Shown here in pieces: positions 20,799-28,946 of a DNA stretch of 64,000 bases. Origin of the DNA: Methylosinus sp. LW4 (GTDB taxonomy: Bacteria > Pseudomonadota > Alphaproteobacteria > Rhizobiales > Beijerinckiaceae); NCBI RefSeq assembly GCF_000379125.1, contig NZ_KB900626.1:2014-66013 (forward strand), given 5' to 3'. Positions within the stretch are counted from its first letter, which is position 1; each line of letters begins with the position of its first letter. Both the position numbers and the translations under genes were made by a program. The notes under the pieces were generated by a model, which was given only the letters and a program-made list of their open reading frames with translations, was not told the origin of the DNA and did no database searches.

Positions 20799-23117
20799 AT
20801 GGCGGACATCTCGGCCGGGAAACTTCCTTGCGCCTATCTCCTCGCGGCGACTCTCGCCGCGGGCTTCACGCCCCTCGTCCTCGGCTGGGCCGGCGGCGAC
20901 CCGCTCCTCTGCTGGGCCGCAGCGGCGCTCGCCGCTTTTGCGGCGGCGAGCGCGATCGAGCGCCGCCTCTCGGCGCAGATCGCCGCCTTGGAGAAGATCG
21001 CTGGGGGCGATCGTTACGCTCCTTTTCCGCCTGCGGGCGGACGTTCGGCGGCGCGGCTCCGCGGCGTCGCAGAGGAGCTGCGTCGCGCTTTGATCGCCGC
21101 CGACGCTTTCGCCGTCGCCGAGCGCAGCCGCGGGGCGGAGCAATCGATTCGCGAGGCCGGCCGCGCTTTCTTCCAGCGGCGGCTGCGCCAGATCGTGGAG
21201 GAGACGGAAGATGCGCTCGCCGTCGCCGACGCCGGCGCGCGATCGGCGGCCGGCGACTGCGCCGCCTGCAATGGCGACATGCTCCGTGGTCTCTCTGACG
21301 CCGCCGCCGCCGCGGCCACGGCGGCGGAGAATGTCGATGGACTGGCGCTGGCGGCGCGGGACGCCATCATCGGCCTCGTCGGGCGCTCTTCGCGCCAAGT
21401 GACGGCGGCGCGCCTGGCTGCCGACCGCAGCGCCGCCGATCTCGCGCGCGCGGAAGACATCGTGCGCGGCCTCGCCGCCGCCGCCGGCCGCATCGGCGCG
21501 GTGAGCAAGCTCATTCAGTCGATCGCCGGCCAGACCTCGTTGCTCGCGCTCAACGCCACCATAGAGGCGGCGCGCGCCGGCGAGAGCGGGCGCGGCTTCG
21601 CCGTGGTGGCGAGCGAGGTGAAGACGCTCGCCAATCAGACCGCGCGCGCCGCCGCCGAAATCGAGACGCAGATCGACTCCATACGTTTCGCGGTGGAGGA
21701 CACGGTCGGCGCCATCGCCGACGTATCGACGAGCGTCGAGGCGGTCGCCGGCGTCAATCGCGACCTCGCAGACACTCTGAGCCGGGAAGCGGCCGAGCTC
21801 GAAGACATAGGGGCGCGCGCCGCCCTCGTCGCCCGCGGCGTCGGCGAAGCGCTGCCGGAGGTCGGCGGCGCCGTGGCGCAGGCGCATTCGGCCGGCCGCT
21901 CGGCGCTCGCCGCCGCGCAGACGATGCTCGGCGGCTCGAAGAGCCTCGTTTGCGCCGTCGATCGCTATTTCGCCGATCTCGACAATGGCGCGATCCGCAT
22001 CGGCATATTGCATTCGCTCTCCGGCACGATGACGAGCAGCGAGCGGCCGCTGCAGGAGCTGCTGACGATGCTGGTCGAGCGCTGCAATGCGCAGGGCGGC
22101 CTCCTCGGACGCCCGCTCGAGGCGGTGATTCTCGATCCGCGCTCCGATCCCGCCCTCTATGCGGAGCAGGCGCGCCTTCTCCTGGAGGAGCGCGGCGTCG
22201 CGGCGATCTTCGGCTGCTGGACCTCCGCCTCGCGCAAAGCCGTGCTTCCGGTGGTCGAAAAGGCCAAGGGCCTGCTCTTCTATCCGAGCCAATATGAGGG
22301 CGAGGAACGCTCGCCCAACATCGTCTACGCCGGCGGCACGCCGAGCCAGACGGCGATCCCCGCCGTGGATTTTCTGAAAGGCCTCGGCGCGCGGCGCTTT
22401 TTGCTCATCGGCAATGACGACGTCTATCCGCGCGTCACCAATGCGATTTTGCGCGCCTATCTCGTCGCGCATGGCGTGGACGTCGCCGATATCGCCGAAA
22501 TCTATGCGCCGCCCGGCCTCGGGGATTGGCGCGCCGTCGCCAGAGACGCGCGGCGCTTCGCCGCCCGTTCCGGCGCGGCGATCGTCTCGACGGTGAGCGG
22601 CGACGCCAATCTGCGCTTTTTCGGCGCGCTGGGCGACGTCGCCTTCGCGCCGATCTTGTCGCTGTCGATCGGCGAGGCGGAACTGCCGGCGCTCGCGCAT
22701 TGCGACATCGACGGGCTCTATGTCGCCTGGAACTACCTTCAGGCGATCGACAGCCCGGAGAATCGCGGCTTCGTCGAGCAATGGCGGCGCTATAAGAACG
22801 CGCCCGACGCCTCGACCAATGACGCCATGGAGGCGAGCTATCTCGGCTTCGAGCTATGGCGCGCGGCGGTCGCCGCTGCGGGCTCCGTCGATGTCGCGGC
22901 GGTGCGCCGCGCGCTGCCGCTGCATGCGCTCCGCGCGCCGAGCGGCTTCTCCCTGAGGCTGGACGCCGAGACGCAGCATTTGCACAAGCCCGCTTTCATC
23001 GGCCGAGTCGCGCGCGGAGGCATAGCTCCGGTCTTCGTCGGGGACGGGCTGATCGCGCCGCAGCCTTGGAGCCCGTGGCTCACCAAGAGCCGCGCCGGAA
23101 AGGCGCGCGCCGCGTGA
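20799..23117 (+). CDS. methyl-accepting chemotaxis protein fused to a C-terminal UrtA/FmdD-like urea/amide-binding domain
   Basis: This is a 772-residue fusion. Two closely spaced hydrophobic helices (about 11-30 and 36-53) leave almost no periplasmic loop. The MCP signalling hairpin spans about 110-390, and its tip, [20 protein letters not shown], starts near residue 242. From about residue 396 to the end comes a full type-I periplasmic-binding fold of the urea/short-chain-amide class: [68 protein letters not shown] and [15 protein letters not shown]. With both helices near the N-terminus, the ligand domain should lie in the cytoplasm, the reverse of ordinary chemoreceptors. A GTG at 20790 is an alternative start. 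No che or urt genes are adjacent. Confidence 0.88.
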
Positions 23118-23756: not shown

Positions 23757-24296
23757 TCACTCGTCGAACACGCCGTCCAGCGCATAATGCGTGACCGTCT
23801 TGCGATTGGCGATGAGCTCGTCGATCGTCGGCTCGCCCTTCAGAGCGCGGGAAATCGCCAGCTTCGTCGCCTCGTAATTGGTGCGATAGAGGTCGCGCCG
23901 GTCGAGGTTCGGATCGGTCGCGCAACGCGGATCGAGCCAGACCATGATGATCATGACGAGATCATTCACTTGATCTTTCGGAATGATTCCTTCGGAAACC
24001 GCATCGACGATGGCGTCGCCGGTCGCCGCCTGCACGACGCCGCCGAGCAGCTCGACGTAATCATTGGAGCGCACCGTCATCTTGGTCGTCATCATGGTGG
24101 CGGGGCGCACCTGCTGATTGAGATCGCGAATGACGAACATGCGCGGATGGCCCGCGACCTGTCCCGTCATGGAGGCGAAAGCCGTCCCCACCGGGCCTTT
24201 GACGCTGCCGATCAGCACTTCCGGCATGGCGTCGGTATATTGCCCGTCCGCCGCCAGAACCGTCGCTTCGCCCGTGGCCAGCCAGATCTCGCTCAT
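23757..24296 (-). CDS. formaldehyde-activating-enzyme (Fae) paralogue lacking the catalytic histidine
   Basis: This 179-residue protein is homologous over its length to Fae, which joins formaldehyde to tetrahydromethanopterin in methylotrophs. Diagnostic stretches are MPEVLIGSVKGPVGTAF, AVSEGIIPKDQVNDLVMI, RTNYEATKLAISRALKGEP and NRKTVTHYALDG. By my alignment, the histidine used for catalysis in Methylorubrum Fae (His17, in HIDLIIG) is replaced by Met24. It may be a Fae2/Fae3-type paralogue with a regulatory or different binding role. AGGAA stands before the ATG. It is divergent from the sorbosone-dehydrogenase-like gene. The family call is firm; loss of activity is inferred. Confidence 0.85.
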   Translation of the reverse strand: MSEIWLATGEATVLAADGQYTDAMPEVLIGSVKGPVGTAFASMTGQVAGHPRMFVIRDLNQQVRPATMMTTKMTVRSNDYVELLGGVVQAATGDAIVDAVSEGIIPKDQVNDLVMIIMVWLDPRCATDPNLDRRDLYRTNYEATKLAISRALKGEPTIDELIANRKTVTHYALDGVFDE

Positions 24297-24445: not shown

Positions 24446-25843
24446 ATGAAGACTTTCGCCCCCACACTTCTCCTCGCCGGCGCCTTCGCCGGCCTCGCCT
24501 TCGCCGGTCATGTCCTCGCGCAATCGGAGGAGGCGCGCCGCCTCATCGGTCCCGCCGCCTTCAGCGATTGGCGGCAGGACGCGCCCGGAACCTGGCGCAA
24601 GATCACCGCGCAGGATTTGCCGGCGCCGCTCGCCAGCGAGCCGACCGCCTCGCGCTCGCAAGTGGTGGCGCGGCCGGACGGCGCCGCGCCCAGGACGCTC
24701 GCGGGCTTCTCGGCGGAGATTTTCGCCTCGGGTCTCGAAGGCCCGCGCGTCATTCGCCATGCGCCCAATGGCGATATTTTCGTCACCGAGAGCGTCGGCG
24801 GCCGGCTCCGCGTCTTTCGTCTCGAGAATGGGAAGATCGCGCCGGCCTCTTCCCATGTCTTCGCCGCGGAACTCGAGCGACCTTATGGGATAGCTTTCTA
24901 TCCGCCGGGGCCGGAGCCGCGCTTCGTCTATGTCGGCACGCCGACGAAAGTGCTGCGCTTCCCTTATAAGAACGGCGATCTTTCCGCCTCCGGCCCCGCC
25001 GAGACGATCGCGAATCTGCCGGGCGCCGATGGCGGCCATTGGACGCGCGATCTCGTTTTCTCGCGCGACGGCAAGACGCTCTATGTTTCCGTCGGCTCCA
25101 AGACCAATGTCGCCGAAGGCCATCCGCGTCCGTCCGCGCAGGAGGTCGCGCAGCTCGAGGCCGCGCATGGGCAGGGCGCGAGCGCGGGCGCCGAATTCGA
25201 GCGCGCGACCGTGCTCGCCATAGACCCGGAAGGAAAGAGCCGGCGCAATGTCGCCAATGGGCTGCGCAATTGCTCCGGCCTGCAATTGCAGCCGGGGACC
25301 GACGCGCTCTGGTGCGTGGTGAACGAGCGCGACATGCTGGGCGACGATCTGCCGCCCGATTACGCCACGCGCGTGAAGGAGGGCGCCTTCTACGGCTGGC
25401 CCTGGCATTACATCGGCGCGCATGAGGACCCCCGCCACGCCGGCGAGCGTCCCGATCTCTCGAGCAAGATCACCATTCCCGATGTGCTGCTCCAGCCGCA
25501 TTCGGCGCCGCTGGGCATCGCCTTCTACGAGGGTGGCCAGTTCCCGGCGGAGTATAAGGGCGACGCTTTCGTCGCTCTGCACGGCTCCTGGAACCGCGCC
25601 AAGCGCACGGGCTACAAGATCGTGCGCCTCTCCTTCAAGGACGGCGTCCCGACCGGCGAGTATCAGGATTTTGTGACTGGCTTCGTCGTGGACGACACGC
25701 GCGTCTGGGGCCGCCCCGTCGATGTGGCGGTGGCGCGCGACGGCTCGCTGCTGGTGAGCGAGGACGGTAACGGAACGATTTGGCGCGTGTCCTACAGCGG
25801 CGCTGCGCCGGCGCAGACGTCCGGGCTCAATCCGGGCAAATAG
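24446..25843 (+). CDS. exported PQQ-type glucose/sorbosone dehydrogenase-like beta-propeller
   Basis: This 465-residue protein has a signal peptide (about 1-25, cut after VLAQ). A six-bladed propeller of the GSDH class follows: SGLEGPRVIRHAPNGDIFVTES, ERPYGIAFYPPG, GGHWTRDLVFSRDGKTLYVSVGS, RNCSGLQLQPGTDALWCVVNERD, YGWPWHYIG, and APLGIAFYEGG. Members oxidise sugars such as L-sorbosone using PQQ and pass electrons to the respiratory chain. PQQ is consistent with a methylotroph that already makes it for methanol dehydrogenase, but the substrate here is not known. The gene is divergent from the Fae paralogue. Confidence 0.85.
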   Translation: MKTFAPTLLLAGAFAGLAFAGHVLAQSEEARRLIGPAAFSDWRQDAPGTWRKITAQDLPAPLASEPTASRSQVVARPDGAAPRTLAGFSAEIFASGLEGPRVIRHAPNGDIFVTESVGGRLRVFRLENGKIAPASSHVFAAELERPYGIAFYPPGPEPRFVYVGTPTKVLRFPYKNGDLSASGPAETIANLPGADGGHWTRDLVFSRDGKTLYVSVGSKTNVAEGHPRPSAQEVAQLEAAHGQGASAGAEFERATVLAIDPEGKSRRNVANGLRNCSGLQLQPGTDALWCVVNERDMLGDDLPPDYATRVKEGAFYGWPWHYIGAHEDPRHAGERPDLSSKITIPDVLLQPHSAPLGIAFYEGGQFPAEYKGDAFVALHGSWNRAKRTGYKIVRLSFKDGVPTGEYQDFVTGFVVDDTRVWGRPVDVAVARDGSLLVSEDGNGTIWRVSYSGAAPAQTSGLNPGK

Positions 25844-25905
25844 AGCGCTTTCCGACCGGCACGGAATCGTTCGATCGATCAGAATTCGCTCCCACGCGAG
25901 AATCG

Positions 25906-25943
25906 AGAGCGCTATCCGATCCAATCGGATTGGATAGCGCTCT
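25906..25943 (+). terminator. hairpin after the sorbosone-dehydrogenase-like gene
   Basis: AGAGCGCTATCC at 25906-25917 pairs with GGATAGCGCTCT at 25932-25943. The stem continues inward through a G-T pair and ATCC/GGAT to an AATC loop. There is no T-tract, so it may be a terminator, an RNA-stabilising structure or a repeat unit. Confidence 0.55.
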
Positions 25944-26004
25944 GACGGGCGAGGGACGCGGCGGCGGTCTAGGGCAATCGGGTGAATGCCGAAAGGGACG
26001 CGCT

Positions 26005-26132
26005 CACCCTCCCCTTTAGGGGGAGGGTCGGCCGGCGAAAGCCGGACGGGGTGGGGTTCGCGGTGAAGACTTGGGGCGTCACTCCCTCCCGAGCGCCTGC
26101 GGCGCTCGACCTCCCCCCTCGAGGGGGAGGTG
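26005..26132. repeat. intergenic mosaic repeat, family A, copy 2 (inverted)
   Basis: This is the reverse complement of the element at 4857-4984 over nearly its whole length. It starts with CCCTCCCC/GGGGAGGG hairpin sequence and ends with CCTCCCCC/GGGGGAGG around TCGA. Here it lies between two genes in tandem rather than convergent ones. Confidence 0.85.
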
Positions 26133-26289
26133 GACACGCCTCGTCAATCACCACTTCTCGTTCGCCCGATCGCCCTGGGCGGCGGTCGTCCTGCTGGACG
26201 GGGCGGGCGCCTTTGGCCTATTTCTTGGGAAAAATGCCGGGAGACGATGACGTCCTCCCGGCGCTCCCGGAAACGCCGAGGCTCGCGCT

Positions 26290-28383
26290 ATGTCCCTTCC
26301 TCTCGCCACGCCGGGCCGCAAGCTCGGCTCGATCGCCCTTTGGAGCGCCATCGTCGCGCTCGGCGTCTTCTCGCTCTTCACCCTGGCGATGGCGCGCGGC
26401 GAGACCGTCAACGCCATGTGGCTGGTGGCGGCGGCGGTCTGCGTCTATCTCGTCGCCTATCGCTTCTACTCCCTGTTCATCGCCAACCGGGCGCTCGGCC
26501 TCGATCCGCAGCGCAAGACGCCGGCGCATCGCCACAATGACGGGCTCGATTATGTGCCGACCGACAAATATGTGCTGTTCGGCCATCATTTCGCGGCCAT
26601 AGCCGGGGCGGGGCCGCTGGTCGGCCCGGTGCTGGCGGCGCAAATGGGCTATCTGCCCGGCACGCTCTGGCTGCTCACCGGCGTCGTCTTCGCCGGCGCG
26701 GTGCAGGATTTCGTCGTGCTGTTCATCTCGACGCGGCGCGACGGGCGCTCGCTCGGCGATCTCATCAAGACAGAACTCGGGCCGGCCGCCGGAATCGTCG
26801 CCATGGTCGGCATTCTCACCATCATGGTCATTTTGCTCGCCGTGCTGGCGCTCATCGTGGTCAAGGCGCTGGCCGACAGCCCCTGGGGCTTCTTCACTGT
26901 CTTCGCCACTCTGCCCATCGCCGTGCTGATGGGCGTCTATGGCCGCTATTTGCGTCCCGGCCGCATATTCGAAATGTCGGTCATCGGTTTCGTGCTGCTC
27001 ATCGCCTCCATCGCGTTCGGCCGCACTGTCGCGGAGACGCCGGCGCTCGCCGCGCTCTTCACTTTCAAGGGCGAGACGCTCGCCTTCATGCTGATCGGCT
27101 ATGGCTTCGTCGCCTCGGTTCTGCCGGTGTGGTTTCTGCTGGCGCCGCGCGATTACCTCTCCACCTTTCTGAAGATCGGCACCATCGCCTCGCTGGCGCT
27201 GGGGATTTTCTACGTCATGCCGGAGCTGAAAATGCCGGCGGTCAGCCGCTTCATCGACGGGACCGGCCCGGTCTTCGCGGGCAGCGTCTTTCCTTTCCTG
27301 TTCATCACCCTCGCCTGCGGCGCCATTTCCGGCTTTCACGCGCTGGTCTCTTCCGGCACCACGCCCAAGATGATCGGCGACGAGACGCAAATCCGCTTCA
27401 TCGGCTATGGCGCTATGCTGATGGAGTCTTTCGTGGCCATAATGGCGCTGGTCGCCGCCACCGTGCTCGATCCGGGCGTCTATTTCGCCATGAACAGCGC
27501 GCCCGCCGTCATCGGCTCCACGGTCGACACGGCGGCGCAGACCATATCGTCCTGGGGCTTCGTCATCACGCCGGAGGCGCTGAGCCAGGCGGCGGCCGAG
27601 GTCGGCGAGAAGACGGTGCTCTCGCGCGCCGGCGGCGCGCCGACGCTCGCGGTCGGCATGGCGAAAATATTGTCGGGGGCGATCGGCGGCGCCTCCATGA
27701 CCGCCTTCTGGTATCATTTCGCCATTCTCTTCGAGGCGCTGTTCATCCTCACCACTGTGGACGCCGGCACGCGCGTCGCGCGCTTCATGATTCAGGATCT
27801 CGTCGGAACCTTCTGGCCGCGCTTCAAGCATACGCGCGCCTGGATTCCCAATTTCGGCGCCACGGGGCTCGCCGTCGCCGGCTGGGGCTGGTTCCTCTAT
27901 CAGGGCGTCATCGATCCTCTCGGCGGCATCAACACGCTCTGGCTCATGTTCGGCATCGCCAATCAAATGCTGGCGGCCATAGCGCTCACCCTCTGCACTG
28001 TGGTGCTGTTCCGCATGAAGCGGGAGCGCTACGCCTTCATCGCCGCGGCGCCGGCGGCCTGGCTCTATATCTGCACGCTGACGGCGGGCGCCGAGAAAAT
28101 CTTCCATCCCGATCCCAAGATCGGCTTCCTCGCCCATGCGGCGCGCTATTCCGCCGCGGCGGCGGAGGGCAGACTGCTCGCCCCGGCCAAGACCGCCGCC
28201 GAGATGAGCCGCATCGTCTTCAATGATTATGTGAACACGACGCTCTGCGCCGTCTTCATCGCGCTGGTCTTGTCCATGCTGTTCTTCGGCCTGCGGGCCA
28301 TCGGCGAGGCGCGGCGCGCGACCAGCGTCACCACCAGGGAGACGAGCGATGAGCTGCACGATCTGCAAATTGCCCGCGCTTGA
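26290..28383 (+). CDS. cstA: CstA-family carbon-starvation / pyruvate-type carrier
   Basis: This 697-residue inner-membrane protein has about 16-18 hydrophobic helices and the CstA hallmarks: DYVPTDKYVLFGHHFAAIAG, GPVLAAQMGYLPG, FVVLFISTRRDGRSLG, SGFHALVSSGTTPKMI and TTVDAGTRVARFM. E. coli homologues CstA and BtsT take up pyruvate and possibly peptides under starvation. The substrate here is inferred. The end overlaps the ybdD-type gene by 35 bases, as in other genomes where the two work together. Confidence 0.93.
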   Translation: MSLPLATPGRKLGSIALWSAIVALGVFSLFTLAMARGETVNAMWLVAAAVCVYLVAYRFYSLFIANRALGLDPQRKTPAHRHNDGLDYVPTDKYVLFGHHFAAIAGAGPLVGPVLAAQMGYLPGTLWLLTGVVFAGAVQDFVVLFISTRRDGRSLGDLIKTELGPAAGIVAMVGILTIMVILLAVLALIVVKALADSPWGFFTVFATLPIAVLMGVYGRYLRPGRIFEMSVIGFVLLIASIAFGRTVAETPALAALFTFKGETLAFMLIGYGFVASVLPVWFLLAPRDYLSTFLKIGTIASLALGIFYVMPELKMPAVSRFIDGTGPVFAGSVFPFLFITLACGAISGFHALVSSGTTPKMIGDETQIRFIGYGAMLMESFVAIMALVAATVLDPGVYFAMNSAPAVIGSTVDTAAQTISSWGFVITPEALSQAAAEVGEKTVLSRAGGAPTLAVGMAKILSGAIGGASMTAFWYHFAILFEALFILTTVDAGTRVARFMIQDLVGTFWPRFKHTRAWIPNFGATGLAVAGWGWFLYQGVIDPLGGINTLWLMFGIANQMLAAIALTLCTVVLFRMKRERYAFIAAAPAAWLYICTLTAGAEKIFHPDPKIGFLAHAARYSAAAAEGRLLAPAKTAAEMSRIVFNDYVNTTLCAVFIALVLSMLFFGLRAIGEARRATSVTTRETSDELHDLQIARA

Positions 28384-28655: not shown

Positions 28656-28946
28656 TCAGCACTCGGCCCGGCCGAGCGCCCGAAACGTGAGCAGCGCGGC
28701 GGCTTCCGAAGTATTCAGCGCATAGGCCATATAGAGAAATCCGAGACGCGTGATCCGCGTCTCGCGGATTTTTTCGACCAGCTCCGCCGTCTCGACGGGC
28801 GCGAGCGATGCGAATTCTTGCAGTATATCTTCCGCCGCATGGCGGAATCTCTCGCGCTCGGCGAGCGTAGCCCTGTCCCAGAGCTGCGGATTGGACCCGA
28901 ATTTCGCGAACAGCGATTTCGCGACGGTTTCGATCAGGTCGATCAT
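28656..28946 (-). CDS. small alpha-helical hypothetical protein
   Basis: This 96-residue protein begins MIDLIETVAKSLFAKFG and is predicted to be all-helical, acidic and cytosolic. It has no signal peptide or membrane segment. Codon use resembles the neighbours, and GAGAA lies a short distance before the ATG, so it is probably real. I recognise no family. It is convergent with the cstA-ybdD unit and divergent from the glycosylase-like gene. Confidence 0.6.
   Translation of the reverse strand: MIDLIETVAKSLFAKFGSNPQLWDRATLAERERFRHAAEDILQEFASLAPVETAELVEKIRETRITRLGFLYMAYALNTSEAAALLTFRALGRAEC

Follow-up and report, generated by a model that had tools for sequence, protein, structure and literature searches.

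What could a chemoreceptor sense with a domain that resembles the binding protein of a urea transporter and that stands behind its signaling hairpin? This question is raised by a gene for a 772-residue protein of Methylosinus sp. LW4, located in a stretch of 64,000 nucleotides of contig NZ_KB900626.1 (assembly GCF_000379125.1) that was analyzed as a whole and is referred to here as the window. The original prediction, made from the letters of this stretch, described a methyl-accepting chemotaxis protein (MCP) with a urea- or amide-binding domain inside the cell. Our best reading of the sequence data is a cytoplasmic-facing, metabolite-sensing chemoreceptor, and, going by sequence and structural model together, we think it rather probable that the protein is anchored in the membrane and reads an intracellular small molecule. 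The ligand likely belongs to small-amide chemistry, while urea itself appears doubtful.

An intact receptor with its sensor behind the hairpin

The gene and its parts are laid out in the window as follows (pLDDT, predicted local distance difference test).

20799–23117, forward strand: receptor gene, 772 amino acids, comprising membrane anchor, chemoreceptor hairpin and UrtA-type binding domain (single open reading frame from ATG at 20799 to TGA at 23117; Pfam; orthologues)
20832–20894, forward strand: first membrane helix, residues 12–32 (hydropathy; model helix 12–32)
20901–20957, forward strand: second membrane helix, hydrophobic part, residues 35–53 (hydropathy and model)
20958–21119, forward strand: HAMP-like segment, residues 54–107, with a helix, a 13-residue connector at 69–81 and a helix (model)
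21042–21980, forward strand: long antiparallel hairpin helices, residues 82–259 and 261–394 (model; MCPsignal 202–345)
21525–21581, forward strand: hairpin tip motif, residues 243–261 (12 of 19 residues invariant in an alignment of 40 sequences)
21954–21989, forward strand: joint between hairpin and binding domain, residues 386–397 (model pLDDT below 50 at 386–395; motif R[YF]Fx[DN][LI])
21993–23075, forward strand: UrtA/AmiC-type (Peripla_BP_5) ligand-binding domain, residues 399–759 (Pfam, alignment, model, structure matches)
22419–22421, forward strand: codon of Asp541, at the position of the urea-bonding Tyr190 of UrtA (alignment; UrtA residues from an excerpt of PMC10392092)
22596–22598, forward strand: codon of Ser600, at the position of the urea-bonding Asn246 of UrtA (alignment; UrtA residues from the same excerpt)

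The hairpin is that of an MCP by its Pfam MCPsignal match at residues 202–345 (E = 9e-27; 94.4 bits against a cut-off of 34.6), its conserved tip and a helix-turn-helix in the predicted structure, and it is followed by a Peripla_BP_5 match at residues 399–759 (E = 7.6e-110) that spans positions 1–359 of the 363 in the profile, the domain order of a chemoreceptor with a C-terminal sensor. The complete binding-protein fold that had been placed from about residue 396 is therefore present at nearly full profile length. Other details of the original prediction also held up, as hydropathy finds the two N-terminal hydrophobic helices at around residues 11–30 and 35–54, the tip motif expected near residue 242 begins at 243, and the UrtA/FmdD-type motifs that it quoted occur in the translation. 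The predicted structure, a monomer with a mean pLDDT of 75.8 and a predicted template modeling score of 0.52, consists of helices 12–32 and 35–68, a coil at 69–81, helices 82–259 and 261–394 joined by a turn at residue 260, followed by an alpha/beta binding-protein fold; 10-residue means of the pLDDT are 75–94 for the binding domain as far as residue 750 and 51–76 for the hairpin. The match lists of Foldseek and VIA were filled with binding-domain matches.

This domain order is not a peculiarity of one gene and recurs in several taxa. A protein search gave 1,949 matches at E 1e-20, and among the best 120 of these, which we analyzed, 115 carry both domains and the other five are short proteins starting within the second hairpin helix. 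The tip lies ahead of the binding domain in all 111 of the best 120 in which both motifs were found by pattern, and R[YF]Fx[DN][LI] marks the joint in 94 of the 120. The three closest database proteins among the matches listed are named Methylosinus and share 96–97% identity over the binding domain, and a relative of the receptor (P0015) is present in M. trichosporium. When residues 50–235 served as query against candidate proteins of around 425–1351 amino acids (8,000 scored), 19 proteins were found at E 1e-8, every one of them with the binding domain. Full-length orthologues are present in eight of ten genomes of the genus, own genome included, and at wider range the receptor family is patchy but recurrent: it was found in 10 of 298 genomes of the taxonomic family (the eight of the genus included), in four of 397 genomes sampled within the order and four of 385 within the class (both counts with the own genome), in 4 of 30 genomes of family f32 (three of them already in the order count) and in 38 of 391 of family f36, which by its resemblance to L016 and P0034 seems to be Xanthobacteraceae-like. 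The counts for family, order, class and f36 may be low, as only the best two to three candidates per genome were scored. One receptor match (L174, genome G1353) has two internal stops and a longest binding-domain frame of 362 amino acids, which makes it a broken copy or the product of poor assembly.

Within the genus, both domains are under purifying selection. In seven congener comparisons, of which the two most distant pairs have high synonymous divergence, the ratio of nonsynonymous to synonymous substitution rates (dN/dS) was 0.10–0.46 for the binding domain, 0.12–0.35 for the MCP core and a looser 0.18–0.93 for the stretch 346–395, with the binding domain below the MCP core in five of the seven. 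A frameshift or assembly artefact, which would have refuted the original prediction, and a chance fusion can both be rejected in practice given these ratios, the orthologues across the genus and the many two-domain matches; the halves are joined in one intact frame of 772 codons.

A binding domain predicted on the cytoplasmic side

Hydropathy detected no hydrophobic stretch between hairpin and binding domain in the receptor, and all 40 family members examined have at least one hydrophobic stretch within roughly their first 80 residues. At a stricter threshold, only two stretches appeared past residue 150 in these 40, one in the receptor's binding fold and one in a hairpin helix of P0083, and thus none between hairpin and binding domain. 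In known receptors the hairpin tip faces and contacts CheA and CheW in the cytoplasm. Since no membrane segment follows the hairpin and the tip faces CheA in these receptors, the binding domain should be cytoplasmic, so that sequence and model lend support to the claim that the ligand domain lies inside the cell, downstream of the hairpin. The membrane helices are two residues apart in the model and hence leave no periplasmic sensor domain. Assuming that the residues on either side of the tip pair symmetrically, the binding domain would be attached opposite residue 126, directly beneath the segment that resembles HAMP, which the model builds as helix, connector and helix; the Pfam HAMP profile matched in three of 40 relatives. 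CheA (PF02895) scores over its cut-off in 18 of 18 genomes, with two matches in the own genome, and two of the 18 are without the receptor, so that its presence is not receptor-specific.

Probable descent from a UrtA-type binding protein

A tree calculated by a quick method with midpoint rooting, in which the binding domains of 23 receptors were combined with 29 free binding proteins, puts all receptors on one side of a branch with a Shimodaira–Hasegawa-like approximate likelihood ratio of 100, and they are embedded among UrtA proteins if the outside is defined by the two formamidase-linked binding proteins. Four receptor branches were flagged as long, two of them as very long; L010 and 23 of 30 f36 loci were left out, and the rows of two binding-protein loci could not be read. 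Because the binding domains of the receptors group as a single clade inside UrtA, the tree suggests a single capture of a UrtA-type domain by a chemoreceptor. The domain is no longer a UrtA by the family model TIGR03407, against which the receptor scores 369.4 bits at a cut-off of 492.75; four other receptors reach 376–453 bits and the two free binding proteins of the own genome 590 and 548. It also lacks the export and transporter genes of a UrtA, as it is internal to its protein and the flanking genes encode a DUF900 hydrolase and a DNA-binding protein.

A pocket that differs from that of UrtA

An excerpt of the report on the Prochlorococcus UrtA–urea structure (PMC10392092) describes nine residues near urea, eight of them conserved, and four (Ser122, Gln144, Tyr190 and Asn246) that hydrogen-bond urea and whose individual mutation strongly cut or abolished binding. 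In an alignment to UrtA, the receptor keeps six of the eight conserved residues (Trp474, Ser476, Tyr495, Gln498, Glu500 and Ser623) and changes two of the four urea-bonding ones, with Asp541 in place of Tyr190 and Ser600 in place of Asn246, and therefore falls short of the eight-residue UrtA pocket. Urea binding by this receptor is likely lost; we grade this as likely since its substitutions differ from the mutants described in that excerpt. Asp541 would suit a positively charged ligand.

The two positions vary across the family. Among the best 120 of the 1,949 matches, position 541 is Tyr in 81, Asp in 14, His in nine, Phe in seven, Thr in six and Gly, Ser or Gln in one each, and position 600 is Ser in 103, Thr in 16 and Asn in one, with the five other pocket residues invariant and the sixth nearly so. 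The 16 receptors from fetched loci (counted aside from the own receptor and the partial L149) have Asp in seven cases, which are all seven congeners, Tyr in four, Thr in four and Ser in one at 541, and Ser in ten, Asn in five and Gly in one at 600. Tyr predominates at 541 in 30 f36 receptors (28, with one Ser and one Phe), all 30 of which have Ser at 600; this count includes the broken copy L174 and leaves out eight matches without a fetched locus. Free UrtA proteins have Tyr190 in 79 of 79 cases and Asn246 in all 77 that are readable, the comparison set being the free proteins of 80 loci, out of at least that many in the genome contigs searched; these 80 comprise one receptor (L016) and 79 free proteins, two of which end before position 246. 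On a tree of 39 rows, position 541 requires at least six changes and position 600 at least four. Because the early-branching receptors of G028, G714 and G837 keep both Tyr190 and Asn246, the pocket of the ancestral sensor was probably of urea type; a further early-branching receptor on a long branch, that of G717, has Thr and Gly at the two positions.

Is the ligand urea after all?

We consider it unlikely, though worth weighing before any other alternative, that the altered pocket still binds urea and that the receptor reports cytoplasmic urea to the chemotaxis system. In favor of this idea, six of eight pocket residues are retained, the three early-branching receptors that keep both urea-type residues come from genomes that all encode urease and UrtA, urease is present in 35 of 38 f36 receptor genomes, and the own genome has urease and UrtA as well. 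Yet Asp and Ser replace residues that do not vary in free UrtA, and the genomes speak against it, too. A full urease match (E < 1e-40) was found in ten of 16 receptor genomes with an estimated completeness of 90–100% and in none of the other six (G003, G008, G504, G523, G596 and G717), which are likewise without any further UrtA-type protein at E 1e-40. G003 and G008 are devoid of any urease-domain match; G523, G596 and G717 have weak partial ones over the Pfam cut-off (26–29 bits, 37–56 of 121 positions) and G504 has two below it, all of which we read as other amidohydrolases. Urease is also common in f36 genomes that are without the receptor (15 of 20 tested). Given the six genomes without a full urease match and the presence of urease in many f36 genomes lacking the receptor, urea use is neither required for nor clearly associated with the receptor. 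Together with the two changed urea-bonding residues, the six genomes lacking both urease and UrtA make urea doubtful as the ligand, and a relative of urea such as a short amide, an amidine or a substituted urea appears more likely from the sequences. The proposal of urea or short-amide sensing thus retains its UrtA/amide ancestry and is weakened with respect to urea.

A link between residue 541 and urease, seen in 16 genomes, was rejected: G1162 and G1215 keep Tyr without detected urease (the G1215 genome is only 79% complete), and an independent-pairs test was not significant (35 rows, six pairs, median p 0.5). This analysis and the 39-row tree left out L010, L016 and ten of 30 f36 loci.

It is improbable that the binding domain has lost its ligand and plays a structural role or binds a partner instead, e.g., in array spacing or dimerization, while the signal comes from the membrane helices, the HAMP-like segment or redox state. 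The repeated changes at positions 541 and 600 would fit such a role, and there is a possible precedent in the PAS domain of TlpD, which has no obvious pocket and may act mechanically according to a part of PMC12871147. However, the near-complete invariance of the six other pocket residues among the best 120 matches and the low dN/dS of the binding domain relative to the MCP core in five of seven comparisons argue against this reading. Lastly, we give very little credit to a periplasmic binding domain, which would require that a third membrane segment was missed or that the topology is inverted: UrtA relatives are exported and the stretch around residues 608–624 is mildly hydrophobic, but this stretch forms helix and strand within the globular fold of the model, no membrane segment separates hairpin and domain, and the CheA-facing tip would need the cytoplasm.

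Several observations weigh against a chemoreceptor for an intracellular metabolite. The Pfam HAMP profile has no match in the Methylosinus receptor itself, and a simple E/Q-pair pattern for methylation sites finds none ahead of its binding domain; among 115 full-length matches scored of 129, this pattern gives no site in 65, one in 45 and two in five, and it is poorly controlled, as only one of the five other MCPs of the own genome was readable, with one site. The pLDDT below 50 at residues 386–395 leaves a tight mechanical coupling of binding domain and hairpin unsupported, and the hairpin itself reaches only 51–76 in a monomer model. No linked gene that would name a ligand was found at the examined loci, and the patchy distribution means that the benefit of the receptor may be narrow.

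How such a receptor may work

For the metabolite-sensing chemoreceptor that we favor, we envisage that the two N-terminal helices anchor the protein in the inner membrane and leave hardly any of it outside, and that a HAMP-like segment leads into the long hairpin whose tip would engage CheA and CheW. The second hairpin helix would return to the UrtA-derived domain, a sensor hanging beside the membrane-near part of the bundle. A cytoplasmic urea- or amide-like molecule might then close its two lobes and thereby pull or twist the second helix at its end; the altered packing of the bundle would then change CheA activity at the distant tip; ligand binding, signal transfer and motility output are all inferred here. 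As a tentative, possible scenario, the family was born once from a urea-transport protein, its sensor moved inside and its pocket was re-tuned, so that the Methylosinus members would navigate by a metabolite inside the cell that resembles an amide, an amidine or guanidine, and not by urea.

Several known systems come close to this design. UrtA (TIGR03407; PDB 8HIC, 7S6E, 7S6F and 8TG1) is a free exported protein, whereas the receptor's domain is fused behind a hairpin, scores below the family cut-off (369 versus 493 bits) and has changed Tyr190 and Asn246. An extract of PMC3795266 presents AmiC and NasS as transport-type binding proteins that act as regulatory sensors. AmiC works with a separate partner, AmiR, while the receptor has its hairpin in the same chain, and by alignment the AmiC pocket has Val at the position of Asn246 and keeps Tyr at 190; none of the 12 nearby window frames scanned is an AmiR or amidase gene, which sets the locus apart from AmiC-type systems. 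NasS, a nitrate sensor related to NrtA, is like the receptor a transporter-type binding protein predicted to act as a soluble cytoplasmic sensor of a nitrogen source, but it is a separate protein that releases NasT and has a different ligand. Receptors with a CZB domain such as TlpD share the sensor after the signaling hairpin and the sensing inside the cell; TlpD, however, is a soluble protein with a small helical zinc domain as its CZB, whereas the receptor has a pair of membrane helices and a binding protein of two lobes. According to a section of PMC12871147, the zinc domains at the C-terminus of TlpD sit astride the hairpin and connect with the kinase interface, which makes TlpD the physical precedent. 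MtpA, the formaldehyde taxis receptor of Methylobacterium (PMC10613068), offers a precedent for a methylotroph whose taxis is linked to metabolism from within the cell, yet it is cytosolic, with no membrane region and no recognized sensor domain.

The topology with a C-terminal sensor is thus already known, and the UrtA-type binding domain in this place appears to be a new combination. Our literature searches, of incomplete coverage and with few subscription papers, found no study of such a receptor, which fits the earlier statement that no protein of this architecture has been characterized; what needs adding is that a passage of PMC7390727 speaks of a "poorly characterized chemoreceptor subfamily" with a C-terminal sensor domain of at least 17 Pfam domain types, and that a census table in PMC8547431, in the part available, lists one Peripla_BP_5 sensor cluster of a single sequence. 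The family suggests how a nutrient-uptake protein can become the internal sensor of a chemoreceptor, and the gradation of its pockets from urea-type to altered forms makes ligand switching testable with few proteins. Where source names are given among the best 120 of 1,949 matches, they are mostly "urea transport system substrate-binding protein," "urea ABC transporter urea binding protein" or "transporter substrate-binding protein." Such names are misleading for receptors and distort the annotation of nitrogen metabolism in methanotrophs and soil bacteria.

Neighboring genes and related loci

The own genome probably has transporters of urea and formamide type besides the receptor, since a free UrtA gene lies around 6 kb from urease and a second, amide-type binding protein gene around 4 kb from a formamidase gene. 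Both proteins (L002 and L003; C1:1708005 and C2:300088) are of UrtA type and score over the TIGR03407 cut-off. This model may over-call urea, because one scoring protein is linked to formamidase and has a different pocket, with Phe for Gln144 and Val for Asn246.

The receptor gene is flanked by the divergent DUF900 hydrolase gene and the convergent gene of the DNA-binding protein. Beside it, at 23757–24296 (reverse strand) and 24446–28383 (forward strand) of the window, lie genes for a formaldehyde-activating enzyme, as expected in a methylotroph, a glucose/sorbosone dehydrogenase-like protein and CstA, which we read as methylotroph surroundings with no obvious link to the receptor. An operon partner as a clue to the ligand was sought and discarded, as no nitrogen-metabolism neighbor was found at the examined loci. 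Conserved neighbors, proposed earlier as a check, do exist, though none is informative on the ligand. Much of the surroundings is common to Methylosinus genomes, and a shared cluster of neighbor genes adjoins the receptor in 21 of 39 f32 and f36 loci, with flanks of only about 1.5 kb. Its member in L113, the only locus in which it was identified, is a DUF255 thioredoxin-like gene (L113:6735–8840, forward strand), and in L113, L114 and L169 the cluster's gene and the receptor gene are arranged tail to tail. A second cluster is shared by seven loci (L016 and six of f36) and corresponds in L016 to a serine hydroxymethyltransferase gene upstream on the opposite strand. We read these shared neighbors as shared genome position and not as partnership.

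Next to the receptor of G717, a 345-residue protein (L118:7555–8589, reverse strand) has a partial MCP signaling domain at residues 9–75 and then a weak dCache match at 150–318, below cut-off, and is by this predicted domain order another case of a sensor placed after the signaling part. Within the window, a frame of 96 amino acids without a Pfam match (28656–28946, reverse strand) is matched in five congener loci.
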